The notes under the pieces were generated by a model. The model was not told the DNA's origin. It did not search any database and saw nothing but the letters and a program-made list of their open reading frames with translations. A stretch of DNA of 64,000 nt, taken from assembly GCF_025642115.1 (NCBI RefSeq), contig NZ_CP106753.1:1325501-1389500 (forward strand), given 5' to 3'. This DNA is from Chitiniphilus purpureus. Lineage in GTDB: Bacteria > Pseudomonadota > Gammaproteobacteria > Burkholderiales > Chitinibacteraceae. Every line of letters starts with the position of its first letter. The stretch's first letter is position 1. A program made the position numbers and the translations under genes. Shown in pieces: positions 53,946-64,000 of the stretch.

Positions 53946-55042
53946 TGGCGCTGCGTCGCCTGCTGCCCTCCCGGATGCGTTGCGAGGGGGTGTCATCGAG
54001 CTGGCGCGCGCTGGCGATCCTGGTCGGCGTCAATCAAGCAGTGGCGCTGCTGCTGACCAGCATGGGCGGCCATGCCACGCTGCTGGACAACGCCCTCATC
54101 GCCAACGCCATCGGCATTTCGATCTGGACCTTGCACAGCCTGAGTGCGCGCTGGCTGCCGCCCGGCCAGACGCAGCCGTGGCGATTCGTCTGGCTGCGCG
54201 CACTGATCGCGGTGCCGCTGGGAGTGTGGTTTGGTTTCAAGGTCAGCGCCTGGCTCGGCGCCTATGACCTGTTTGCCCGGCCGGACAGCGTGTTCGGCGC
54301 ATGGCGTGTCATCGCCAGCAGCCTGCTGCTGGCCGGCGGTGCCACGATGGTGGTGGTGCTCTATATCCGCAATCTGCAGTACCAGACCGATCTTGCGGCC
54401 GAACAGCGGCGCGTGGCCGAGGCCCGCCAGACCGAGACCGCGGCGCAGCTGGCGCTGTTGCAGGCGCAGATCGAGCCGCACTTCCTGTTCAACACATTGG
54501 CCAATGTGCATAGCCTGATCGTGCAGGACCCACCTTTGGCGCAGACGATGCTCGATCATCTGAACAGCTACCTGCGCGTCAGCCTGGGTCGTACCCGCCG
54601 GCTGCGTGCCACGTTGGGCGACGAGCTGCAGCTGGTCGGCGCCTTGCTGGCGATTGCCCAGATCCGGCTGCCGGCGCGCCTGGGCTACCGGATCGAGGTG
54701 CCGGCCGTGTTGCAGGGCGCGGTGTTGCCGCCGCTCCTCCTGCAGCCGTTGGTGGAGAACGCGTTGCGCCACGGCATCGAGGCCGCGGTGGCCGGCGGCG
54801 AAGTGACGGTGCGCGGCGAGCGTGTCGGGGATGGCCGGCTGCGGCTGACGGTCAGCGATACCGGACCCGGGCTCGCCGCCACTCCCGCCACCGGCTTGCC
54901 GACCACCTCGGGCATCGGCCTGGCCAATGTGCGGCAGCGCCTTGCCAGCCTGTACGGTGAGCACGCGCGTCTTGCGCTCTATCCCAACGTGCCGCACGGT
55001 GTGGTGGCCGAATTGCTGTTGCCGTACGAGGAAAGCGCATGA
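53942..55042 (+). CDS. Sensor histidine kinase, LytS/YehU type
   Basis: A 366-residue membrane histidine kinase. Four hydrophobic segments occupy about residues 20-150. The His-kinase domain has the phospho-acceptor in QIEPHFLFNTLANVHSLI (His180). The ATPase domain shows NALRHGIEAAV (N box) and SDTGPGLAATP (G1), ending with GIGLANVRQRLASLYG (G2). There is no recognisable extracellular ligand domain. It starts at ATG 53942 or 53945 and overlaps the response regulator start by ATGA, so the two form one pair. Confidence 0.92.
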   Translation: MMALRRLLPSRMRCEGVSSSWRALAILVGVNQAVALLLTSMGGHATLLDNALIANAIGISIWTLHSLSARWLPPGQTQPWRFVWLRALIAVPLGVWFGFKVSAWLGAYDLFARPDSVFGAWRVIASSLLLAGGATMVVVLYIRNLQYQTDLAAEQRRVAEARQTETAAQLALLQAQIEPHFLFNTLANVHSLIVQDPPLAQTMLDHLNSYLRVSLGRTRRLRATLGDELQLVGALLAIAQIRLPARLGYRIEVPAVLQGAVLPPLLLQPLVENALRHGIEAAVAGGEVTVRGERVGDGRLRLTVSDTGPGLAATPATGLPTTSGIGLANVRQRLASLYGEHARLALYPNVPHGVVAELLLPYEESA

Positions 55043-55773
55043 CCGTCATCCTGATCGCCGATGACGAGCCGCGGCTGGCCGAGCATCTGGCCAGCCGTGT
55101 GGCACAACTATGGCCGGGGGCCACGCATTTGCTGACCGCCGGCAACGGCCTGGAAGCGGCGGCGCTGCTGGTGGCGCATCGGCCGGACGTGGCATTCCTG
55201 GATATCCGGATGCCCGGCCTCACCGGCCTGCAGGTGGCGCAGGCGGCCAGCGACACCCGCGTGGTGTTTGTCACCGCCTACGACGAATATGCGATCGCCG
55301 CGTTCGAGCATGCAGCGGTGGATTACCTGCTCAAGCCGGTCAGCGACGCACGGCTGGCGCAGTGCGTGGCGCGGCTGCAGCGCGAGGCCCGGCCGCAGGC
55401 CGGGCTGGCCGATCTCTTGGCTCGGCTGCCGGCACCGGGCGCGTCCGCGCACCTCGCGTGGCTGACGGTGGGTCTGGGCGATACCACCCGGTTGGTGGCA
55501 GCCGACGAGGTGGTGTATTTCGAGGCCAACAACAAATACACCGACGTGGTGACCGCCACCGAGCGTCACCTGATCCGCACACCGCTCAAGGCGCTGCTGC
55601 CGCAGCTCGACGGCAGCCGCTTCGCCCAGATCCACCGCGCCTTCATCGTCAGCCTGCCCGCGGTGGCGCGCATCCATCGGGATCTGATGGGACGCCAGCA
55701 GGTGTTCCTGAAATCGCGCAGCGAGGTGTTGCCGCTCTCACGCAGCTTTGCCGGGCGCTTCCGGCAGATGTGA
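55039..55773 (+). CDS. LytTR-family response regulator
   Basis: A 244-residue response regulator. The receiver domain (1-115) has the acidic pocket IADDE (6-10), the phosphorylation site Asp55 in FLDIRMPGLTG, Thr in VFVTAYDEYA and Lys in DYLLKPVS. The LytTR DNA-binding domain (about 145-244) shows VVYFEANNKYTDVVTATERH and FAQIHRAFIVSLPAVARIHR. It is coupled to the kinase gene. It lies directly downstream of the ABC-LolA-barrel cassette on the same strand, which suggests, but does not prove, that it controls that cassette. Confidence 0.93.
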   Translation: MTVILIADDEPRLAEHLASRVAQLWPGATHLLTAGNGLEAAALLVAHRPDVAFLDIRMPGLTGLQVAQAASDTRVVFVTAYDEYAIAAFEHAAVDYLLKPVSDARLAQCVARLQREARPQAGLADLLARLPAPGASAHLAWLTVGLGDTTRLVAADEVVYFEANNKYTDVVTATERHLIRTPLKALLPQLDGSRFAQIHRAFIVSLPAVARIHRDLMGRQQVFLKSRSEVLPLSRSFAGRFRQM

Positions 55774-55860
55774 GGTGCCGCTCGTCCGCACAATGACGCC
55801 GGCACGGCAGCGGCGGCTGGCTTTGCCAGACTGAAAGCCCTGATTCCGACGAAGGCGAAG

Positions 55861-56319
55861 ATGACCGTGGACAATCCTTATCTGGCCTGGTGGCGCAACG
55901 GCCTGACGTGGTGGGAGATCTGGTGGGCGGCACCGCAGGTGGTTACGCAACGCGTGACCCGGATGGCGCTGGCCAAGCAGCCGCTGAGCCCGCGCGATCA
56001 GCGCGAATTCACCCGCATGGGCACCGAGAAGCTCGATGCCTTCAGCCGCGCGGGCTGGGCGATGCTGCTGGAGTGCTGGCGCATGCAGCAGCAGGCCTGG
56101 TTCGCCGGCCTGAGTGGCTGGACCGCACTGGCCGGCGGCCAGCGGCGCCCGCGCCCACCACACTGGGATAGCAGCCGGCTGTGGGCGGCAACGATGGCGC
56201 CGGTGCACCGCACCGTGACCGCCAACGCCCGTCGCCTTGGGCCGTTCAATGCCTATCCGGCGTTGGCAGCGGTACGCGGCAAGCCCAGACGCCGGCCCAA
56301 GCGCCCCCAGGAGCGCTAG
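55861..56319 (+). CDS. Small Trp-rich protein, possibly phasin-like
   Basis: A 152-residue protein of unknown function. The N-terminus has six tryptophans in residues 10-22 (AWWRNGLTWWEIWW), followed by a helical region with APQVVTQRVTRMALAKQPLS and EFTRMGTEKLDAFSRAGWAM. The C-terminus is strongly basic and proline-rich. The middle recalls proteins annotated as polyhydroxyalkanoate granule-associated phasins in Betaproteobacteria, but I cannot confirm the match. No signal peptide was seen. A GAAGGCGAAG ribosome site precedes the ATG. Confidence 0.6.
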   Translation: MTVDNPYLAWWRNGLTWWEIWWAAPQVVTQRVTRMALAKQPLSPRDQREFTRMGTEKLDAFSRAGWAMLLECWRMQQQAWFAGLSGWTALAGGQRRPRPPHWDSSRLWAATMAPVHRTVTANARRLGPFNAYPALAAVRGKPRRRPKRPQER

Positions 56320-56376
56320 CGCAGCCCATTGACGGGTTGGCCCGCCGTTACCGATCCGGAAGCGGGCAAGGCGGGA

Positions 56377-56425
56377 TGCGCAACGAAAACGGCGGCTTGA
56401 TGCCAAGCCGCCGCATCGTTGCGCA
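56377..56425 (-). terminator. Nested inverted repeat after the PIG-L gene
   Basis: The inner stem CGGCGGCTTG (56390-56399) pairs with CAAGCCGCCG (56404-56413) around ATGC. Outer arms TGCGCAACG (56377-56385) and CGTTGCGCA (56417-56425) also pair perfectly. AAAA at 56386-56389 reads as TTTT on the minus strand, so the inner stem can act as a terminator for the PIG-L gene. Confidence 0.65.
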
Positions 56426-56435
56426 GGATTGCGGA

Positions 56436-57296
56436 TCAGGCCAGCACGGCCTTGATGTCCTCGCCCGGGGCGATGGTGTATTTCTGCTCGGTTTCCACGA
56501 TGGCACGGCCATCGAACCGGACGATTCTGTAGATGGTGCCGAAACTGAAGGTCGGGGCGGCCGCACCCTGACCGCCGCACACCTCGGCACCGCGACGCAC
56601 GTTGTCGGCCATCCAGCCGGGCAGGCGCAGATGGTAGGGGTTGCGCGCCACTTCGCCCACGTGGCAGGCGAGCGCTGCGATCAGGTCCGCGGTGTCGTTG
56701 TTGCCGGTGGCGATCAACGCATTGGGCTTTTCCATCTGGCGCCAGAACTCGGAGAGCGCCAGCACACAGCCATGACCGGCCTTGGCCAGCGCGTCGATGA
56801 CCAGGTGGTGCGTACCGATATGAGCCGAGTGGTAGTCGTTGTCGTGCGGGAACACGCAGACCGCCGGCCGGTATTCCTCGATCAGCCGCGCGATCACTGC
56901 CACCTTCTCGGCCCAGGCGGTCGGGTCGCCGTCACGGGTCTTGGTGCCCACGCCCATCAGTCCGCCGGGAATGGTTTCGCGCAGGTCCCAGCCCAACAGG
57001 TCGCAGGCGTTCTTCAGCTCGGTCCAGCGTTCGGGCTGGCGCTTGAGGTTGGAGCCCTGGGTCACCGCCACATTGATCACCCGGAAGCCCGCTTCGCGCG
57101 CCAGCCGCAGCGGCAACGCGCCGATGATGCATTCGTCGTCCGGGTGCGGGGCGAAGATCAGCACGGTGGGGGCGTCGGCCGGCAATACCGGGCGCGCCGG
57201 CAGCGCGAGACCGTCCAGCGAGGCGTAAAGCGGGGCGTCCTTCTTTTGCAGCAGCGCATCGTGCGCCTGGACGAGGTCGAGGTAGGCATGGCTCAT
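56436..57296 (-). CDS. PIG-L/LmbE-family deacetylase
   Basis: A 286-residue zinc-dependent N-deacetylase of the PIG-L family. Metal-binding motifs are HPDDE (51-55) and HSAHIGTHH (near 155). The substrate is unknown; family members deacetylate GlcNAc-linked compounds, bacillithiol or mycothiol precursors, or antibiotic intermediates. The ATG at 57296 gives MSHAYLDLVQ, with GGAG about 9 nt upstream. No sugar-transfer genes lie nearby. A promoter about 230 nt upstream suggests a long leader. Confidence 0.88.
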   Translation of the reverse strand: MSHAYLDLVQAHDALLQKKDAPLYASLDGLALPARPVLPADAPTVLIFAPHPDDECIIGALPLRLAREAGFRVINVAVTQGSNLKRQPERWTELKNACDLLGWDLRETIPGGLMGVGTKTRDGDPTAWAEKVAVIARLIEEYRPAVCVFPHDNDYHSAHIGTHHLVIDALAKAGHGCVLALSEFWRQMEKPNALIATGNNDTADLIAALACHVGEVARNPYHLRLPGWMADNVRRGAEVCGGQGAAAPTFSFGTIYRIVRFDGRAIVETEQKYTIAPGEDIKAVLA

Positions 57297-57528
57297 CAAG
57301 CGGGCTCCAAGGATCAACAGGCGGGGGCCGCGGCGCGCCGGGCCTGCCGGCATGCGATCCACGGTTGCGTGCGGGGCGGTTCGAGACTCCGTGCAACGAG
57401 CCCGGTGTGCTGCGGCATGAAGACCGCAGGTGGCCGGCACACAGCGTCCTGCCTGACCGGACGCAGCCGTGAAACCCATGGACAGGCCCGGGGGCCGCTC
57501 CCGTAAGGAATCACGGCGAGTATAGGCC

Positions 57529-57547
57529 GTTTGGCGCACCCGACCAA
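57529..57547 (-). promoter_or_regulatory. Putative promoter for the PIG-L gene
   Basis: On the minus strand TTGGTC (57547-57542 on the plus coordinates) and TATACT (57534-57529) form the two hexamers; the plus-strand interval between them is short, so the 17-bp spacing holds only if the -35 is read from TTGGTC further upstream at the GACCAA ending near 57557. I therefore treat TATACT as the firm element and the -35 as uncertain. The leader to the ATG would be about 225 nt. Confidence 0.25.
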
Positions 57548-57593
57548 CCCGGGCAGGGCTGCCCGCCGTCGCCAGGAGCGATCCGACCCAGGC

Positions 57594-57645
57594 TGCCGCC
57601 TTGTTACCCGGCCTGCTGCACAATCCGGGTAAATTGCCGCCTTGT
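57594..57645. repeat. Direct repeats flanking an inverted repeat upstream of the DUF475 gene
   Basis: The direct repeat TGCCGCCTTGT occurs twice, 41 bp apart start to start. Between the copies lies TTACCCGG-N13-CCGGGTAA, a perfect 8-bp inverted repeat. The element ends 84 bp before the ATG at 57730. It could be an operator or an RNA hairpin in the leader; no known motif was matched. Confidence 0.55.
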
Positions 57646-57729
57646 CCTTGGCAGGGCCGGCGCCCAGACTGGCCACGGGGCCGCAATTCGTGTCGAATGC
57701 GGCAGTGATCGGATCAACAGCGGATTGGC

Positions 57730-58788
57730 ATGATGTGGCAATACTTTCGCGGCTCGGCGGTGGTGACGGCGGTAGGTCTGGCGATGGCCTGGGGCATCGG
57801 TGGCCCCGGCGGCCTGTGGGTGGCATTCAACCTTGCGTTGCTGGAGACCAGCCTGTCGTTCGACAACGCCGTGGTGAATGCGTCGGTGCTCAAGCATTGG
57901 GATGAAAAGTGGCGCCGCCGCTTCCTGATCTGGGGCATGCTGATCGCTGTGTTCGGCATGCGGGTGATCTTCCCGCTGGTGATCGTCGCCGTGATCGCGA
58001 TGATGGCGCCGCTGCCCGGGCCGGTGACGATCTATCAGTGGCTGACCAGCGGGGCCTGGCCGACGAGCGACGTGCTGTCGATGGCCATCGTGCAGCCGGA
58101 TCGCTATGCCGCCATCCTGCAGTCGGCCCATATCGAAGTGACAGCCTTCGGCGGCGCCTTCCTGATGCTGGTGTTCTGGAACTTCTTTCTGAACCACGAA
58201 AAGGACGTGCACTGGTTCAAGCCCATCGAGCGTCTCCTGGCCAAGATCGGCAAGCTCGACATGGCGGCGATCCTGCTGTCGCTGCTGGTGCTGCTGGCGG
58301 TGGCGCGGCTGCTGCCCGGGGCGGAGGGATACCGCTTTCTGCTGGCCGGGCTGTGGGGCGTGGTGGTGTTCGTGGCGGTGGACGGGCTGGGCAGCCTGCT
58401 GGGTGACGAACAGGCGGCGGCCAAGACCGGCTGGGGCGGGTTCCTGTATCTGGAGATCCTGGACGCCTCGTTCTCGTTCGACGGCGTGCTCGGGGCATTC
58501 GCGCTGACCAAGAGCATCTTCCTGATCGCGATCGGCCTTGGCATCGGTGCGATGTTCGTGCGCTCGTTCACGCTGCTGCTGGTGTATCGCGGGACGCTGT
58601 CGTCGCTCAAATACCTGGAGCACGGTGCCTTCTGGGCGATCGGCGCGTTGGCGGCGGTGATGTTGCTGGCGGCCAGGTGGCATATCCCGGAGGCGATCAC
58701 CGGCGGGGTGGCGGCGGTGCTGATCGTGCTGGCGGCATTGCATTCATGGTGGATCAACCGCCGCGCGGTGGCACAGCACCCGGCTTAG
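57730..58788 (+). CDS. DUF475 family integral membrane protein
   Basis: A 352-residue membrane protein with about nine hydrophobic segments. Two internally similar acidic motifs, ETSLSFDNAVVNASVL (about 39-54) and EILDASFSFDGVLGAFALTK (about 240-260), resemble the paired motifs of the TerC superfamily. TerC members are linked to metal export (manganese) and tellurite resistance; the function of DUF475 proteins is not established. ATG 57730 or 57733 can start it. It converges with a TerC/Alx-type gene, so two distant superfamily members lie together. Confidence 0.88.
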   Translation: MMWQYFRGSAVVTAVGLAMAWGIGGPGGLWVAFNLALLETSLSFDNAVVNASVLKHWDEKWRRRFLIWGMLIAVFGMRVIFPLVIVAVIAMMAPLPGPVTIYQWLTSGAWPTSDVLSMAIVQPDRYAAILQSAHIEVTAFGGAFLMLVFWNFFLNHEKDVHWFKPIERLLAKIGKLDMAAILLSLLVLLAVARLLPGAEGYRFLLAGLWGVVVFVAVDGLGSLLGDEQAAAKTGWGGFLYLEILDASFSFDGVLGAFALTKSIFLIAIGLGIGAMFVRSFTLLLVYRGTLSSLKYLEHGAFWAIGALAAVMLLAARWHIPEAITGGVAAVLIVLAALHSWWINRRAVAQHPA

Positions 58789-58803
58789 GCCGCATGCGAC
58801 ACA

Positions 58804-58824
58804 ACGCCGGCACAGGGCCGGCGT
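58804..58824. terminator. Hairpin between the convergent DUF475 and alx genes
   Basis: ACGCCGGC (58804-58811) pairs with GCCGGCGT (58817-58824) around ACAGG. It lies in the 50-bp gap between two convergent genes, but has no T-run on either side. It may work as a weak terminator or a 3'-end stabiliser. Confidence 0.45.
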
Positions 58825-58838
58825 GGTGATCGATCGCA

Positions 58839-59789
58839 TCAGTGATGCTGTTCGGGTATCGGCTCGCCGCGTGTCTTGTACAGTGAGTACAGCACGCCCG
58901 CCACCAGGAGACCGAAGGTGACCCCGAGCGAGATCGGCGAGGGAATCTTCACCTCCATGTACACCAGCCCGATCTTGGCGCCGATGAAGATCAGCACCAC
59001 TGCGAGCGCGTATTTCAGGTAGTGGAAGCGGTGCACCATGGCGGCCAGCGCGAAGTAGAGTGCACGCAGACCAAGGATGGCGAAGATGTTCGAGGTGTAG
59101 ACGATGAACGGATCCTGGGTGATGGCGAAGATCGCCGGGATGCTGTCGACCGCGAACACGAGGTCGGCCGCTTCCACCATCAGGAGCGCCAGGAACAGCG
59201 GTGTTGCATAACGCCCGGCTGCAAGGCCGACGCGGCTGCCGTCGACGAAGAAGTCCCGGCCGTGCAGCTGCGGCGTCATCTTCAGATGCCGCTTGAGATA
59301 GCGGAAGATCGCGTTCTGCTCGACGTCGGTTTCCTCATCCTTGGCCAGCAGCATCTTGATGCCGGTGAACACCAGGAAGGCGCCGAACAGCAGCAGGATC
59401 CACGAGAACTCATGCACCAGCGCGGCGCCAAGGCCGATCATCACTGCCCGCATCACGATGGCGCCGAGGATGCCCCAGAACAGCACGCGGTGCTGGTACT
59501 CGCGCGGGATGGCAAGGCTGGTGAAGATCAGCGAGATGACGAACACGTTGTCCATCGACAGCGACTTCTCCACCAGGAAGCCGGTGAAGTAATCCATGCC
59601 GGCATCGCCCCCCTTGTACCACCAGACGAAGCCGCCGAAGGCCAGGCCGGCGGTGATGTAGAAGGCCGACAGCAACAGGCTTTCCTTGATGCTGATTTCG
59701 TGGCTGTCCTTGTGCAGCACCCCCAGGTCGAACACCAGCAGCGCGATCACCACTGCGGCAAACAGACCCCAAACCCATAATTCCGTCAT
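58839..59789 (-). CDS. alx: TerC/Alx-family membrane protein
   Basis: A 316-residue TerC-family protein with about nine membrane helices, close to E. coli Alx, a manganese exporter induced at alkaline pH. Family motifs are GFLVEKSLSMDNVFVISLIF (about 70-90) and FAVDSIPAIFAITQDPFIVY with FAILGLRALYF (about 215-250). The ATG at 59789 (MTELWVW) is preferred because GGGACAGAGC lies upstream; an ATG at 59801 would add four residues. The yybP-ykoY riboswitch that controls alx in E. coli was looked for in the leader and not found. Confidence 0.9.
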   Translation of the reverse strand: MTELWVWGLFAAVVIALLVFDLGVLHKDSHEISIKESLLLSAFYITAGLAFGGFVWWYKGGDAGMDYFTGFLVEKSLSMDNVFVISLIFTSLAIPREYQHRVLFWGILGAIVMRAVMIGLGAALVHEFSWILLLFGAFLVFTGIKMLLAKDEETDVEQNAIFRYLKRHLKMTPQLHGRDFFVDGSRVGLAAGRYATPLFLALLMVEAADLVFAVDSIPAIFAITQDPFIVYTSNIFAILGLRALYFALAAMVHRFHYLKYALAVVLIFIGAKIGLVYMEVKIPSPISLGVTFGLLVAGVLYSLYKTRGEPIPEQHH

Positions 59790-60001
59790 GCTCTGTCCCA
59801 TTCAATGTCGTTGTATCGTTCCCGTTATGTTTGACCGAACGGGCGCAACCAAAGAGCATTATTGCCCAGAAAGAGTTCCCCGGTGCGGCGGGAAACACGG
59901 GGGTGGGTCGATATGCGGGAGGTGTGGGTGAGCGCCGGTTCTTCTCCAGTGGCAGGCGAGGTTGCGCATTGTGCCCGCTGCCGCAGGTTTTCAAGGTTGC
60001 C
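59790..60001. other. Divergent region between alx and tatD
   Basis: A 212-bp non-coding region. It contains the inverted repeat CCCGTT (59821-59826) and AACGGG (59838-59843), placed about 32-54 nt upstream of the alx start, which may be an operator or leader hairpin. No confident -35/-10 pair was identified for either gene. In-frame codons upstream of tatD are open but unconserved. Confidence 0.4.
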
Positions 60002-60808
60002 ATGCTGATAGATAGCCATTGCCATTTGGATGCCGCCGAATTCGATGACGACCGCGATCAGGTGGTCCGGCGTGCGTTGGCTGCCGGCGTAGCGCAGCTG
60101 CTGGTGCCGGCGGTCACCGCCGCAACCTTCGCCGCAACGCTGGCGACGCGGGAGCGCTACGGCTGTGCGGTGGCGCTGGGCCTGCATCCGTTATACGAGG
60201 CTGGACACCGCGACGCGCATCTGGCGCAGCTCGCGGCGCTGGTGGCGCAGGCCCGCCCGGTCGCGGTTGGCGAGATCGGACTCGACTTCTTCGTGCCCGG
60301 CCTTGATGCCGCACGGCAGGTAGCGTTCTTCGAGGCACAGCTGCGGCTGGCGCGCGATTTCGACCTGCCGGTGATCGTGCATATCCGGCGCAGCCAGGAC
60401 CAGGTGCTCAAGTACCTGCGCAAGTGGGGCGTGCGCGGCGGGATCGCCCATGCGTTCAATGGCAGCCGCCAGCAGGCGGACGCGTTTCTCAAACTCGGCT
60501 TCAAGCTCGGTTTCGGCGGCGCCATGACCTATGGTGGTTCGCAACGCATCCGCCGACTCGCGGCCGAGTTGCCGCTGGAGGCCATCGTGCTGGAAACCGA
60601 TGCCCCGGACATTGCGCCGGCCTGGCTGGCGGGCCCCCCGCCCGGGCGCAATGAACCGGCGCAACTGCCGCGCATCGCCCAGGTGCTGGCCGGGCTGCGG
60701 CAGGACACGCCGGCGCGGATCGCTGCCGCGACGCGGGACAACACATTGGCGGTGCTGCCCGGATTCACCATGGCGCCGCTTCAGGCCGGCAGCACCGCGC
60801 GCAGCTGA
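60002..60808 (+). CDS. tatD: TatD-family metal-dependent hydrolase
   Basis: A 268-residue TIM-barrel hydrolase of the TatD family, which includes 3'-5' DNA exonucleases. Metal ligands are visible in order: HCH (6-8) in MLIDSHCHLD, Glu in AVGEIGLDFF (near 93), His in VIVHIRRS (near 128), His in GIAHAFNGS (near 150) and Asp in LETDAPD (near 200). The ATG at 60002 follows CAAGGTTGC. Its 3' end overlaps the convergent TrpRS-like gene by 28 bp. It is not next to tatABC. Confidence 0.94.
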   Translation: MLIDSHCHLDAAEFDDDRDQVVRRALAAGVAQLLVPAVTAATFAATLATRERYGCAVALGLHPLYEAGHRDAHLAQLAALVAQARPVAVGEIGLDFFVPGLDAARQVAFFEAQLRLARDFDLPVIVHIRRSQDQVLKYLRKWGVRGGIAHAFNGSRQQADAFLKLGFKLGFGGAMTYGGSQRIRRLAAELPLEAIVLETDAPDIAPAWLAGPPPGRNEPAQLPRIAQVLAGLRQDTPARIAAATRDNTLAVLPGFTMAPLQAGSTARS

Positions 60809-61632
60809 CCCAGCGCCTGGCAGGCAGCCGCGCGTGCCCGCGCCGTGCCTTGTTCCAGCACATGCGCCAGTGCGGGCCGGTCGGCGGCGAGGGCTGTGCG
60901 CCGCTCGCGCACCGGCCGGAGCGCATGCTCCATGCAGTCGAGCAGATGGGCCTTGACCACGCGTTCCGACAGTCCCCCACGACGGAACTTGGCCTTCAGG
61001 TCGTCCTGGAAATGCAGATCGTGCTCGAAGACCTCCAGCAACTGGAACAGCGGATGCCCCTCCGTCTCGCCGGCAGGCAGGCCCAAGGCCTCGCCGGCAG
61101 GCAGTGCCTCGATCGTTGCCGCCAGGCCCGCTGCATCGCTGACAGGGGCGGCGAGCGGCACGCGCGGTGCTGCGAAAGGGCTGCGTCGGGCCAGCATCGG
61201 TTGCGCCTCATGCAGCACCTTGCCGCCGGCGTGGGCATTCACTGCGCGGACCACCGCGTTGGCGGCCGCCACCTCCGGTGCGGAGGCCGCATGCGGCGAT
61301 ACGAGCCCCGGGCGCAGGGCGGCCAGCAATGCGGCCGTATCCAGCGCGGGCGGCGCGCCGTGGGGCAGACCGGCCAGCGTATCGCGCAACTGCGCGAGCT
61401 CCGGAATCCGTGCCGGAACGATCAGCGCAACGCGCCTGGGGTCGATGCCGGCGGCCAGGTGATCGGCGGCGGCGTTGAGCGCGCTGTCCTCATCGGCATG
61501 CTCCAGCATCAGCAACTGCGGATGGCGCTGCTGGAAGAACAGACGTTGGCGCAGGCCGCCGACAAGTTGGCCCAGCGAGAGCGGTCCGCAGACGCGTTCC
61601 GCACAAAGGATGGTGGCACCGGAAGCTTGCAT
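60781..61632 (-). CDS. Degenerate tryptophanyl-tRNA synthetase-like protein
   Basis: A 283-residue protein resembling a shortened TrpRS. The C-terminal 92 residues match the TrpRS tRNA-binding domain: HPLFQLLEVFEHDL (193-206), LKAKFRRGGLSERVVKAHLL (212-231 approximately) and LRPVRERRTALAAD. The N-terminal part keeps the Rossmann pattern: AADHLAAGIDPRRVALI (55-71) followed by PELAQL. The HIGH-type motif is degraded to GPLSLGQLVGGLR (16-28), with Ser where the first His should be, and KMSKS is absent. So aminoacylation is unlikely. The frame is intact. The ATG at 61632 follows AAGGACCACGATC. It overlaps tatD by 28 bp. Confidence 0.7.
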   Translation of the reverse strand: MQASGATILCAERVCGPLSLGQLVGGLRQRLFFQQRHPQLLMLEHADEDSALNAAADHLAAGIDPRRVALIVPARIPELAQLRDTLAGLPHGAPPALDTAALLAALRPGLVSPHAASAPEVAAANAVVRAVNAHAGGKVLHEAQPMLARRSPFAAPRVPLAAPVSDAAGLAATIEALPAGEALGLPAGETEGHPLFQLLEVFEHDLHFQDDLKAKFRRGGLSERVVKAHLLDCMEHALRPVRERRTALAADRPALAHVLEQGTARARAAACQALGQLRAVLPA

Positions 61633-61993
61633 GATCGTGGTCCTTGTTCTGGTGGCCACCGATCCGCAGCGAAGGGGAGAGTCCCCGAAACAACCGTGCC
61701 GCCTGGATCGGCGGCACAGTGTGATTGAATCGAACGTTCCCGGGCCGCCTCCTAGAAATAGGAGCGGTACCAAAACGCCTGAGGGCGCAACAAAGGGGAA
61801 CGGTTGGGGGCATGCATGCGACGACTGTGCCGGCCGGCGCTGTCGCTGCCTATGCGGGAAATCCCCTAGATCTTGCCCACAGGCATAGCGTTGCGGCACT
61901 CGACGCGGTGCTGAACAAGGGGCAATACGTGCGCTGGCCGCCTGTCCGGATCACCAGTCGGATCCGGTGCCGACGCATCGGCACCGCGTAGGT
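61633..61993 (-). promoter_or_regulatory. Structured region upstream of the TrpRS-like gene
   Basis: A 361-bp non-coding region between moeB and the TrpRS-like gene. In the direction of the TrpRS-like gene it holds, in order, GGTGCCGA/TCGGCACC (61966-61985), CTCCTA/TAGGAG around a GAAA loop (61749-61764), GTGCCGCC/GGCGGCAC (61696-61717) and GGGGA/TCCCC (61674-61686). None has a long T-run. No leader peptide rich in Trp codons was found, and no clear promoter. Confidence 0.45.
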
Positions 61994-62782
61994 TCAGCCG
62001 GTGGCGACGGTGGCGCATACCGGACAGTGCGGGTCCTTGCGATAGCGCAGCTCGCGCCAGCGCAGGCTGAGCGCATCGAGCAGCAGCAGGCGGCCGGTCA
62101 ATGGCTCGCCGACGCCGGCAAGCAGCTTCAGCGCCTCGGCGGCCTGGGCCGTGCCGATCAATCCGGTCAGCGGCGCGAATACGCCGAAAGTGGCGCATGG
62201 GCTGTCGCTGGCTTCGCCGTCTTCGCCGAACAGGCAGTGGTAGCAGGGGTGCCCGTCCGAGCGCGGGTCGAACAGTGTCAACTGTCCGTCGAACCGCACC
62301 GCAGCCCCGGAAACCAGCGGCACTTTGGCTGCCACGCTGGCGCGGTTGATCGCGTGGCGCGTGGCGAAATTGTCCGAACAATCGAGCACCACATCGTGAG
62401 TGGCGACCAGCTGCGTGAGCCGTGCACCGCCGGCACGCTCGACGAGCGGTACCACATGGGTGGCCGGGTTGAGCGCTGCCAGCGCGTGTGCGGCGGATTC
62501 GGCCTTGTACATGCCGATGCGGGTCGTGGTGTGGGCAATCTGGCGCTGCAAATTGGTCAGGTCCACCACATCATCGTCCATTAGCGTGAGCGTACCCACG
62601 CCCGCCGCGGCAAGGTACAGCGCCGCCGGGCTGCCCAACCCGCCGGCGCCGATCACCAGCACGCGGGCAGCGGCGATGCGTGCCTGGCCTTCCACCCCGA
62701 TCTGGTCGAGCAGGATATGGCGGCTGTAGCGCAGCAGCTCGGCGTCGTCGAGATTGCAGGTGGAAGCGGCGCAGGCGGGCAT
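61994..62782 (-). CDS. moeB: Molybdopterin-synthase adenylyltransferase MoeB/ThiF-like
   Basis: A 262-residue E1-like enzyme that adenylates the C-terminal glycine of a sulfur carrier such as MoaD or ThiS. The nucleotide-binding loop is GAGGLGS (45-51), followed by DDDVVDLTNLQRQIAH (about 69-84) and the active-site Arg in that block. Zinc-binding cysteine pairs are CYHC (near 178) and CPVC near the C-terminus. There is no rhodanese domain. MoeB and ThiF cannot be separated confidently, as no moa or thi gene is adjacent. It lies downstream of ctpA on the same strand. Confidence 0.88.
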   Translation of the reverse strand: MPACAASTCNLDDAELLRYSRHILLDQIGVEGQARIAAARVLVIGAGGLGSPAALYLAAAGVGTLTLMDDDVVDLTNLQRQIAHTTTRIGMYKAESAAHALAALNPATHVVPLVERAGGARLTQLVATHDVVLDCSDNFATRHAINRASVAAKVPLVSGAAVRFDGQLTLFDPRSDGHPCYHCLFGEDGEASDSPCATFGVFAPLTGLIGTAQAAEALKLLAGVGEPLTGRLLLLDALSLRWRELRYRKDPHCPVCATVATG

Positions 62783-62865
62783 GGCGGCAGATCACGGGCG
62801 GGAAGCCGTGATTATAACCTGCGTACCCATATGGTCCGATGGCCGCGGGCTTGCGCTGCGGCAAG

Positions 62866-62890
62866 AAAATGCCCCGCCGAGGCGGGGCAT
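62866..62890 (-). terminator. Intrinsic terminator after ctpA
   Basis: ATGCCCCGC (62869-62877) pairs with GCGGGGCAT (62882-62890) around CGAG. AAAA at 62866-62869 is a T-run on the minus strand. It probably ends ctpA before moeB. Confidence 0.7.
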
Positions 62891-62910
62891 GGATCGCCGG
62901 GATATCCCGC

Positions 62911-64000
62911 CTATTTGGCTGCAGCCTTGGCCGGCTTGGCCGGGGCGGCGGGGGTCTTCTGCTGCAGCAGCAATTGCTGCACCTTCAGCACCGACAATGC
63001 CTGCTGCAGCTGGTAGTCGCTCTTGGACGCGAGCTCGCGCGGGTTCTGCTCGGCAGCCTCGTCCATGCCGGAGGCTGCGCGGGCCGGCGGTTGCTTCAGC
63101 TCGGGCTTGGTGGCGGCGGGTCTTTCCGCGGGCTTTTCACCACCGACCGGGTTGTTCAGGTGGTGCTGCAGGTCGGCCTCGCGCAGTTGCAGGCCGCTGC
63201 TTTCCTTGCCGTTAACCGTGCCTTCCTCCACCTCGATGTCCGGCGTGATGCCCTTGGCCTGGATCGAGCGGCCGTTGGGCGTGTAGTAGCGGGCCGTGGT
63301 CAGCTTGAGCGCGGATTTGGCATCGATCGGCAGAATGGTCTGCACCGATCCCTTGCCGAAGGTCTGGGTGCCGACCACCAGGGCGCGCTTATGATCCTGC
63401 AGCGCACCGGCGACGATCTCGGACGCCGAGGCCGAACCGCTGTTGACAAGCACCACCAGCGGCACCGTCTTCACCTCGGCCGGCACGTTCTTGAAGTAGT
63501 CGTCGCGCCCGCCGCGCTGGTAGTTCTCGCGGCTGGCGTGCAACCGGATCTTGGCATCCGCGGTGCGGCCTTCGGTGTAGACCACCAGCGCATCGCGGGG
63601 CAAAAAGGCGGCCGACACGCCGACCGCGCCGTTGAGCAGGCCGCCCGGATCGTTGCGCAGGTCCAGCACCAACCCCTTGAGCGGCGCCTTGTTTTCCTTG
63701 TACAGCGCTTCGAGCGCGCTGGCGAGGTTCTCGGTGGTGCGCTCCTGGAACTGGGTGATGCGGATATAGCCGTAACCCGGTTCCGCGAGCTTGGACTTGA
63801 CGCTCTGCACCTTGATGACGGCGCGCTTGAGGGTCAGCACGATGGGCTTGCTCTCGCCCTTGCGCAGCAGCATCAGCTTGACCGACGAGCCGGGCTTGCC
63901 GCGCATCTTGCTCACTGCCTCCGACAGCGACAGGCCCTGCACCTGGGTCTCGTCGATCTTGACGATGTAGTCGCCCGCCTTGATCCCGGCGCGGTAGGCC
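62911..64000 (-). CDS. ctpA: Carboxy-terminal processing protease, S41 family (5' end outside window)
   Basis: The C-terminal 362 residues of an S41 serine protease; the frame runs off the window edge, so the signal peptide and N-terminus are missing. The PDZ domain begins at the edge (AYRAGIKAGDYIVKIDETQV). The catalytic serine lies in VNSGSASASEIVAGAL and the lysine in TFGKGSVQTI, an intact Ser/Lys dyad. The C-terminus carries a Pro/Ala/Lys-rich tail ending in repeats of AKPAK. Such periplasmic proteases process or degrade envelope proteins. Confidence 0.95.
   Translation of the reverse strand, partial: AYRAGIKAGDYIVKIDETQVQGLSLSEAVSKMRGKPGSSVKLMLLRKGESKPIVLTLKRAVIKVQSVKSKLAEPGYGYIRITQFQERTTENLASALEALYKENKAPLKGLVLDLRNDPGGLLNGAVGVSAAFLPRDALVVYTEGRTADAKIRLHASRENYQRGGRDDYFKNVPAEVKTVPLVVLVNSGSASASEIVAGALQDHKRALVVGTQTFGKGSVQTILPIDAKSALKLTTARYYTPNGRSIQAKGITPDIEVEEGTVNGKESSGLQLREADLQHHLNNPVGGEKPAERPAATKPELKQPPARAASGMDEAAEQNPRELASKSDYQLQQALSVLKVQQLLLQQKTPAAPAKPAKAAAK

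Follow-up and report, generated by a model that had tools for sequence, protein, structure and literature searches.

The window analysed here is a 64,000-nucleotide stretch of Chitiniphilus purpureus DNA (contig NZ_CP106753.1, positions 1,325,501 to 1,389,500). On its minus strand lies a gene for a paralogue of tryptophanyl-tRNA synthetase (TrpRS) that appears to have lost catalysis, hereafter the pseudosynthetase. A leader with a Trp codon, a terminator-like hairpin and an alternative helix precede its start codon, and none of these figured in the preliminary description of the locus. The features are as follows:

60781 to 61632, minus strand: TrpRS-like pseudosynthetase gene, 283 aa, start codon ATG at 61632-61630 and stop codon at 60783-60781, assigned by homology and predicted fold.
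61752 to 61817, minus strand: leader peptide open reading frame (ORF) encoding MHAPNRSPLLRPQAFWYRSYF and a stop codon, with the Trp codon UGG at 61772-61770.
61749 to 61764, minus strand: predicted hairpin 1:2 of the leader (CTCCTA-TTTC-TAGGAG), covering the stop codon of the leader peptide.
61697 to 61716, minus strand: terminator-like hairpin 3:4 (GCCGCC..GGCGGC), followed by TTGTTT (61693-61688).
61655 to 61665, minus strand: region 5 (GGATCGGTGGC), complementary to region 3 (61715-61705), giving the alternative helix 3:5.
61633 to 61645, minus strand: Shine-Dalgarno (SD)-like AAGGA (61645-61641) and region 6 (CCACGATC), from the predicted fold.

The length of the 283-codon frame is little proof of a gene, because the DNA is GC-rich and a 292-codon ORF on the opposite strand (60850-61728) is open too; as judged from sequence, it is homology that settles the matter. 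Phmmer matched residues 8-83 and 179-280 to TrpRS II (PDB chain 2a4m, E 2.3e-22), and NCBIfam trpS profiles matched at E 3.2e-10 to 1.8e-8, far under the profile cut-offs, while a Pfam scan of the protein gave no family even at E 10. Against active relatives in Chitinibacteraceae the match extends through residues 97-281 as well. Both searches agree with the family link made in the preliminary description. The segments on which that link had been based (the C-terminal 92 residues and residues 55-82) do match but are too small in extent, and of the open frame and ribosome site also put forward, the ORF and the SD-like AAGGA were found, the open length counting for little. A complete TrpRS is also encoded, at G000:C1:3147209-3148387.

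A motif alignment of 17 pseudosynthetases (16 genomic copies and protein P0010) with E. coli TrpRS and active relatives shows that KMSKS, already reported missing from the window protein, is lost in 17/17, as is GxDQ. CP1 has 26-36 residues in the pseudosynthetases and 54-61 in the aligned active enzymes. The catalytic part of the window protein, correctly described before as shortened, is reduced at three sites: the loop after HIGH, CP1 and the KMSKS loop. The disappearance of KMSKS, GxDQ and part of CP1 from every member is strong sequence evidence for catalytic loss. The change in the HIGH-type motif is weak evidence by itself. The motif does read SLGQ in the window protein, and its first residue is S in seven, T in five and G in five of the 17, but E. 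coli TrpRS has T17-I-G-N20 there, so that S or T alone is no proof of inactivity. Taken as a whole, the earlier interpretation is borne out in part: it holds for family link, catalytic loss, retention and the existence of orthologues with the same loss, it needs correction in the weight given to the HIGH change, and the regulatory or RNA-binding job it suggested is a putative one. The two outcomes named in advance as refuting it, a fold unlike TrpRS and a lack of orthologues with this loss, did not occur. Structure prediction returned the whole TrpRS fold, Rossmann part and helical C-terminal domain, for the window protein, a result partly carried by homology because the model's alignment included three intact TrpRS rows.

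Searches, of which those with proteins scored only the 7997 and 7995 candidates with most words in common, found relatives with the same losses in Chitinibacteraceae only: Chitiniphilus, Andreprevotia, Chitinolyticbacter, Jeongeupia, strain HSL-7, Silvimonas and Amantichitinum. Among 43 genomes of this family the pseudosynthetase occurs in 16, in six of 11 genera, and the active short TrpRS-II has 32 copies in seven genera; some genera have the dead paralogue but no active TrpRS-II. A tree of 42 selected proteins places all 17 pseudosynthetases in one clade (100/99), nested within the Chitinibacteraceae TrpRS-II enzymes (98/98); the tree carries long-branch warnings and does not fix the order of some pseudosynthetase genera. 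The pseudosynthetase arose once, from the TrpRS-II of Chitinibacteraceae. In genera g1, g2, g10 and g11 its gene is flanked by a ThiF-family gene on one side and by tatD, then terC, on the other, and in g3 and g6 the tatD-terC flank alone was found beside it. An active TrpRS-II gene adjoins it in convergent orientation in three g10 genomes (Jeongeupia), and the same locus holds an active TrpRS-II gene alone in the one genome examined from g9 (Iodobacter group).

A wider distribution was considered and rejected. Among the matches listed from 399 genomes of the order, full-length ones outside Chitinibacteraceae cover 966 bases or more, like active enzymes, and seven pseudosynthetase genes span 810-891 bases; long open frames alone cannot separate the two kinds in this comparison. 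Of 47 loci picked up when 84,980 species genomes were scanned, nine match most of the query and lack both KMSKS and a HIGH-type His. By these simple patterns all nine are from Chitinibacteraceae, one with a stray GDDQ outside the motif's place; the scan is not exhaustive, since it missed the Jeongeupia copies. Two shorter frames were seen. One, in genome G181, encodes 163 aa, hardly more than the C-terminal domain, and resembles a broken copy of separate origin. The other, from another family of the order (L100, 2213-2638, minus strand), has 141 codons with a TrpRS-like start fused directly to the C-terminal domain, and is perhaps an independent broken copy. In the window itself, 57730-58785 (plus strand) and 58842-59801 (minus strand) are convergent genes for TerC-family membrane proteins (DUF475 and TerC) adjoining tatD.

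The main TrpRS of the 43 genomes is of a 400-aa type, a 430-aa type, or both, which bears on whether the pseudosynthetase modulates the active TrpRS of the cell or forms a heteromer with it. TrpRS of bacteria forms a homodimer, its interface made by CP1 (PMC12135181), and the leader suggests expression when Trp-tRNA is short. Yet CP1 is just what has been shortened, and the main TrpRS differs by genus (the 400-aa type in g1 and g3, that of 430 aa in g6), which means that no one type of partner was conserved; we consider this role quite unlikely.

Within genera, the ratio of nonsynonymous to synonymous substitution rates (dN/dS) of the pseudosynthetase is well below 1 in 16/16 pairs (NG86 0.080-0.258, YN00 0.075-0.356), indicating purifying selection; nine pairs of active TrpRS-II give 0.018-0.113 by NG86. 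In the same g11 genome pairs, NG86 yields 0.08-0.19 for the pseudosynthetase versus 0.02-0.11 for its active paralogue. The frame is open in all 16 genomic copies and in P0010, and the chance of its staying open after 228 random substitutions, the number separating two g1 species, is 0.01. The pseudosynthetase is a retained gene, as first proposed, under weaker constraint than the active enzyme. That weaker constraint and the many lost motifs would also suit a slowly decaying relic travelling with the leader, its protein without function. Such a relic is hard to sustain, and very improbable, in the face of the open frames, the dN/dS values and the keeping of the gene in six genera.

Upstream of the window gene, the Trp-codon peptide placed before competing hairpins looks like the parts of a ribosome-mediated Trp attenuator. 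Region 6 can pair with region 5, enclosing the SD, and the fold from region 5 to the ATG has a z of -2.3. A T-box riboswitch, suggested by a TGGTACC box in the leader, was rejected: the leader codons UGG-UAC-CGC account for the box, and Rfam on 55000-64000 gave no T-box match at E 5, the four matches listed being all far under the gathering scores. About 40 bases 5' of the leader ORF is a GGG-n-CCC palindrome (GGGGATTTCCC, 61866-61856, minus strand). Similar elements were seen by eye in that place before pseudosynthetase genes of g1, g3, g6 and g10 and before an active g4 trpRS; the palindrome is possibly an operator or part of a promoter.

A short ATG ORF with at least one Trp codon near its end precedes 16/16 pseudosynthetase genes and 18/19 distinct active short genes examined (36/37 rows, or 34/35 distinct ones, L020 being identical with L052 and L029 with L053). 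Its peptide contains FWYRSY in g1, g3 and g6, FYWWYR in g2 and g11 and NYWYRPY in g10; before active TrpRS-II it contains YWWRL, WYYR, WCYR, RWWRR or HWWR. Under a stricter rule, applied in the shuffle control and the reason for the lower count there, the leader motif was found in 18/37 rows, versus 0/26 upstream regions of other TrpRS types (the 430-aa type in all but one, which is of the 400-aa type) and 1/7400 mono-shuffles. All eight copies from g1, g3 and g6 end in FWYRSY plus one last residue. This ending, AFWYRSY or SFWYRSY when the preceding residue is counted, is conserved in three genera beyond the need of stalling at one Trp codon, in part because the hairpin forces it; a leader peptide acting in trans is conceivable.

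In 20 aligned leaders (16 pseudosynthetase, four active), 95.4% of the cells of helix 3:5 are paired, against at most 47% when it is slid. Both sides are changed in 11 cells and in 3/11 pairs, and none of 500 shuffles equals the pairing, the covariation score or the number of such cells. Hairpin 3:4, which has a T-rich tail, is paired in 100% of cells. For the tail fold of region 5 and the SD, z averages -1.8 across 35 rows and is -2.3 to -4.8 in the g1, g3 and g6 pseudosynthetase genes; in this comparison region 5 was picked for its complementarity to region 3, a choice that favours 3:5, and L050 and L051, without region 3, were left out. A covariance model built from 19 leaders (R1) and run on the 43 family genomes gave 38 matches at E <= 1e-3, all 5' of a pseudosynthetase gene (16/16) or an active short trpRS (22/32). 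Half of them (19/38) lie outside the model, 10 from genera absent from it (g4, g5, g7) and nine near model members.

Control of the trp operon by the same leader was rejected, since 38/38 of these matches precede a trpRS-II or pseudosynthetase gene, in a comparison that would not detect a diverged leader and did not take in the sequence directly before the trp operon. There were 13 weaker matches (E 0.006-0.07), and of nine inspected, six were apparently unrelated and three (L090, L091 and L092, in g9) stand before a transporter-like gene. These three have a Tyr-run leader (SYYYLACPLAA), a GGCCGCC..GGCGGCC hairpin and a T-run, perhaps a tyrosine attenuator, 5' of a gene that resembles one for a sodium:neurotransmitter symporter. 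In the wider order (L105-L121), a WW leader was present, by our own reading, in 15 of the 19 readable TrpRS-II upstream regions out of 20 fetched, these being the top of a list and not a random sample. WW leaders so widespread before auxiliary TrpRS-II suggest that Trp attenuation of TrpRS-II is ancestral in the order.

Putting these observations together, we propose, with a probability of roughly 0.5, that a duplicated TrpRS-II became a conserved non-catalytic pseudosynthetase that kept the ancestral leader, is made when Trp-tRNA is short, and acts without catalysis. The support computed for this consists of the TrpRS-like predicted fold, the motif loss, the single origin, the synteny, the purifying selection, the Trp-codon leader and the mutually exclusive helices. 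The TrpRS-II gene of Chitinibacteraceae would have been duplicated once, and one copy would have lost the Trp-activating parts while remaining under the old leader. With Trp-tRNA plentiful, the ribosome would complete the leader peptide, helix 3:4 would form and transcription would stop; in any read-through RNA the SD would be masked by 5:6 pairing. With Trp-tRNA scarce, the ribosome would stall at UGG, leaving region 2 free to compete for region 3 and spoil 3:4. Helix 3:5 could then form, avoiding the terminator and freeing the SD, and the pseudosynthetase would be made. We infer these attenuation steps by analogy with established Trp attenuation, and, less firmly, a non-catalytic role in the Trp-shortage response, most likely RNA binding through the C-terminal helical domain. 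RNA binding is the first choice because the longest invariant run across the 17 members, DDLK.K.RRGGL, lies in this domain, its RRGGL (17/17) just N-terminal to where Y270, G271 and K274, anticodon contacts of E. coli TrpRS (PMC12135181), fall in the alignment.

Several observations weigh against this proposal. At the leader, the window peptide has one Trp codon, alongside Phe and Tyr, the U-tract after hairpin 3:4 is weak, and a simple scan of window positions 61600-62000 reported neither terminator nor promoter. Helix 3:5 is not above shuffles on two of five measures (its count of pairs changed on both sides is reached by 80/500, that of further pair types by 95/500), helix 3:4 hardly varies (423/500 shuffles reach it on these two measures), most leaders of g9 and g10 have a weak helix 5:6 (z above -1), and R1 missed 10/32 short trpRS copies. 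NG86 dS exceeds 1 in 5/16 pseudosynthetase pairs. In the protein, the residues aligned with Y270-G271 are E-R in the window copy. The identity contacts of E. coli TrpRS with tRNA(Trp), E155 and T225-D226 (PMC12135181), are kept in 4/17 and 5/17 pseudosynthetases respectively, the latter being the group of Silvimonas and Amantichitinum; the window protein has A in place of E155 and has lost T225-D226. In TrpRS an Asp reads the indole of Trp (same source), by our reading of the motif D135 of E. coli; it is kept in 4/17, is E in one, and is lost in the window protein. With these residues mostly lost, canonical reading of tRNA(Trp) is not preserved.

The same residues bear on two other roles. A decoy or chaperone that binds tRNA(Trp) with the usual specificity would agree with the invariant run in the C-terminal domain, with the T225-D226 that five members retain, and with K or R at the K274 position in 14/17 (K in eight, including the window protein, R in six, Q in three). 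It is unlikely, given that neither E155 nor T225-D226 survives in the window's genus, in three other genera or in P0010; the RNA bound by the proposed non-catalytic protein, if any, would not be read with that specificity. A dead TrpRS core that binds Trp and reports to a Trp biosynthesis enzyme would follow the precedent of HisZ, the HisRS paralogue that regulates HisG, as stated in a review (PMC9437257), and could draw on the Trp-codon leader and the whole predicted fold. Loss of the indole-reading Asp argues against it, and the neighbours tested (ThiF, TatD, TerC, DUF475 and S41-peptidase genes) include no trp gene; we think it improbable, even more so than the partner role.

The pseudosynthetase probably has a new job, and looks like a synthetase-derived pseudoenzyme still under the apparent amino-acid switch of its parent. 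Synthetase-like pseudoenzymes have become regulators repeatedly. A more specific reading, which we offer tentatively and with the odds somewhat against it, is a family of Trp-starvation-induced dead TrpRS paralogues that regulate by RNA binding or allostery, the equivalent for TrpRS of HisZ or SLIMP, caught partway. Silvimonas and Amantichitinum would have the less eroded form, with E155, T225-D226 and D135 largely retained, and Chitiniphilus, Andreprevotia, Chitinolyticbacter and Jeongeupia the more eroded one, all on the ancestral tryptophan switch. Jeongeupia has active and dead copies side by side, Iodobacter (in the one genome examined) the active one alone at this locus and other genera the dead one alone, with a leader of the same kind. 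The change from enzyme to non-enzyme, and its role under Trp shortage, are thus directly testable in environmental chitin-degrading bacteria.

A search of titles and abstract beginnings in the open-licence literature found no paper on such a protein or leader in Chitinibacteraceae, an absence that is weak evidence. An experimental study of Streptomyces trpRS1 reportedly exists. Proteome papers on Andreprevotia and Jeongeupia (PMC8802321, PMC10455584) may contain data on expression. The table of the review cited above, in its available part, lists HisZ, SLIMP and others, and for TrpRS gives auxiliary enzymes only and no paralogue function (PMC9437257). The nearest known relatives of the pseudosynthetase are Deinococcus radiodurans TrpRS II (PDB 1yi8/2a4m) and the family's own short TrpRS-II. 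Unlike these auxiliary enzymes, it is without KMSKS and GxDQ, its CP1 is shortened and its HIGH-type motif altered. Like HisZ, it is a non-catalytic synthetase paralogue apparently tied to the metabolism of its own amino acid; unlike HisZ, it has lost the Trp-binding Asp and has no trp gene among its tested neighbours. The leader resembles the attenuator predicted upstream of Streptomyces avermitilis trpS2 (PMC1262725), where a Trp-codon leader peptide and competing hairpins likewise stand before an auxiliary trpRS. In contrast to that system, the leader described here also precedes a dead paralogue, and its 3:5 helix competes with the SD-hiding 5:6 helix.
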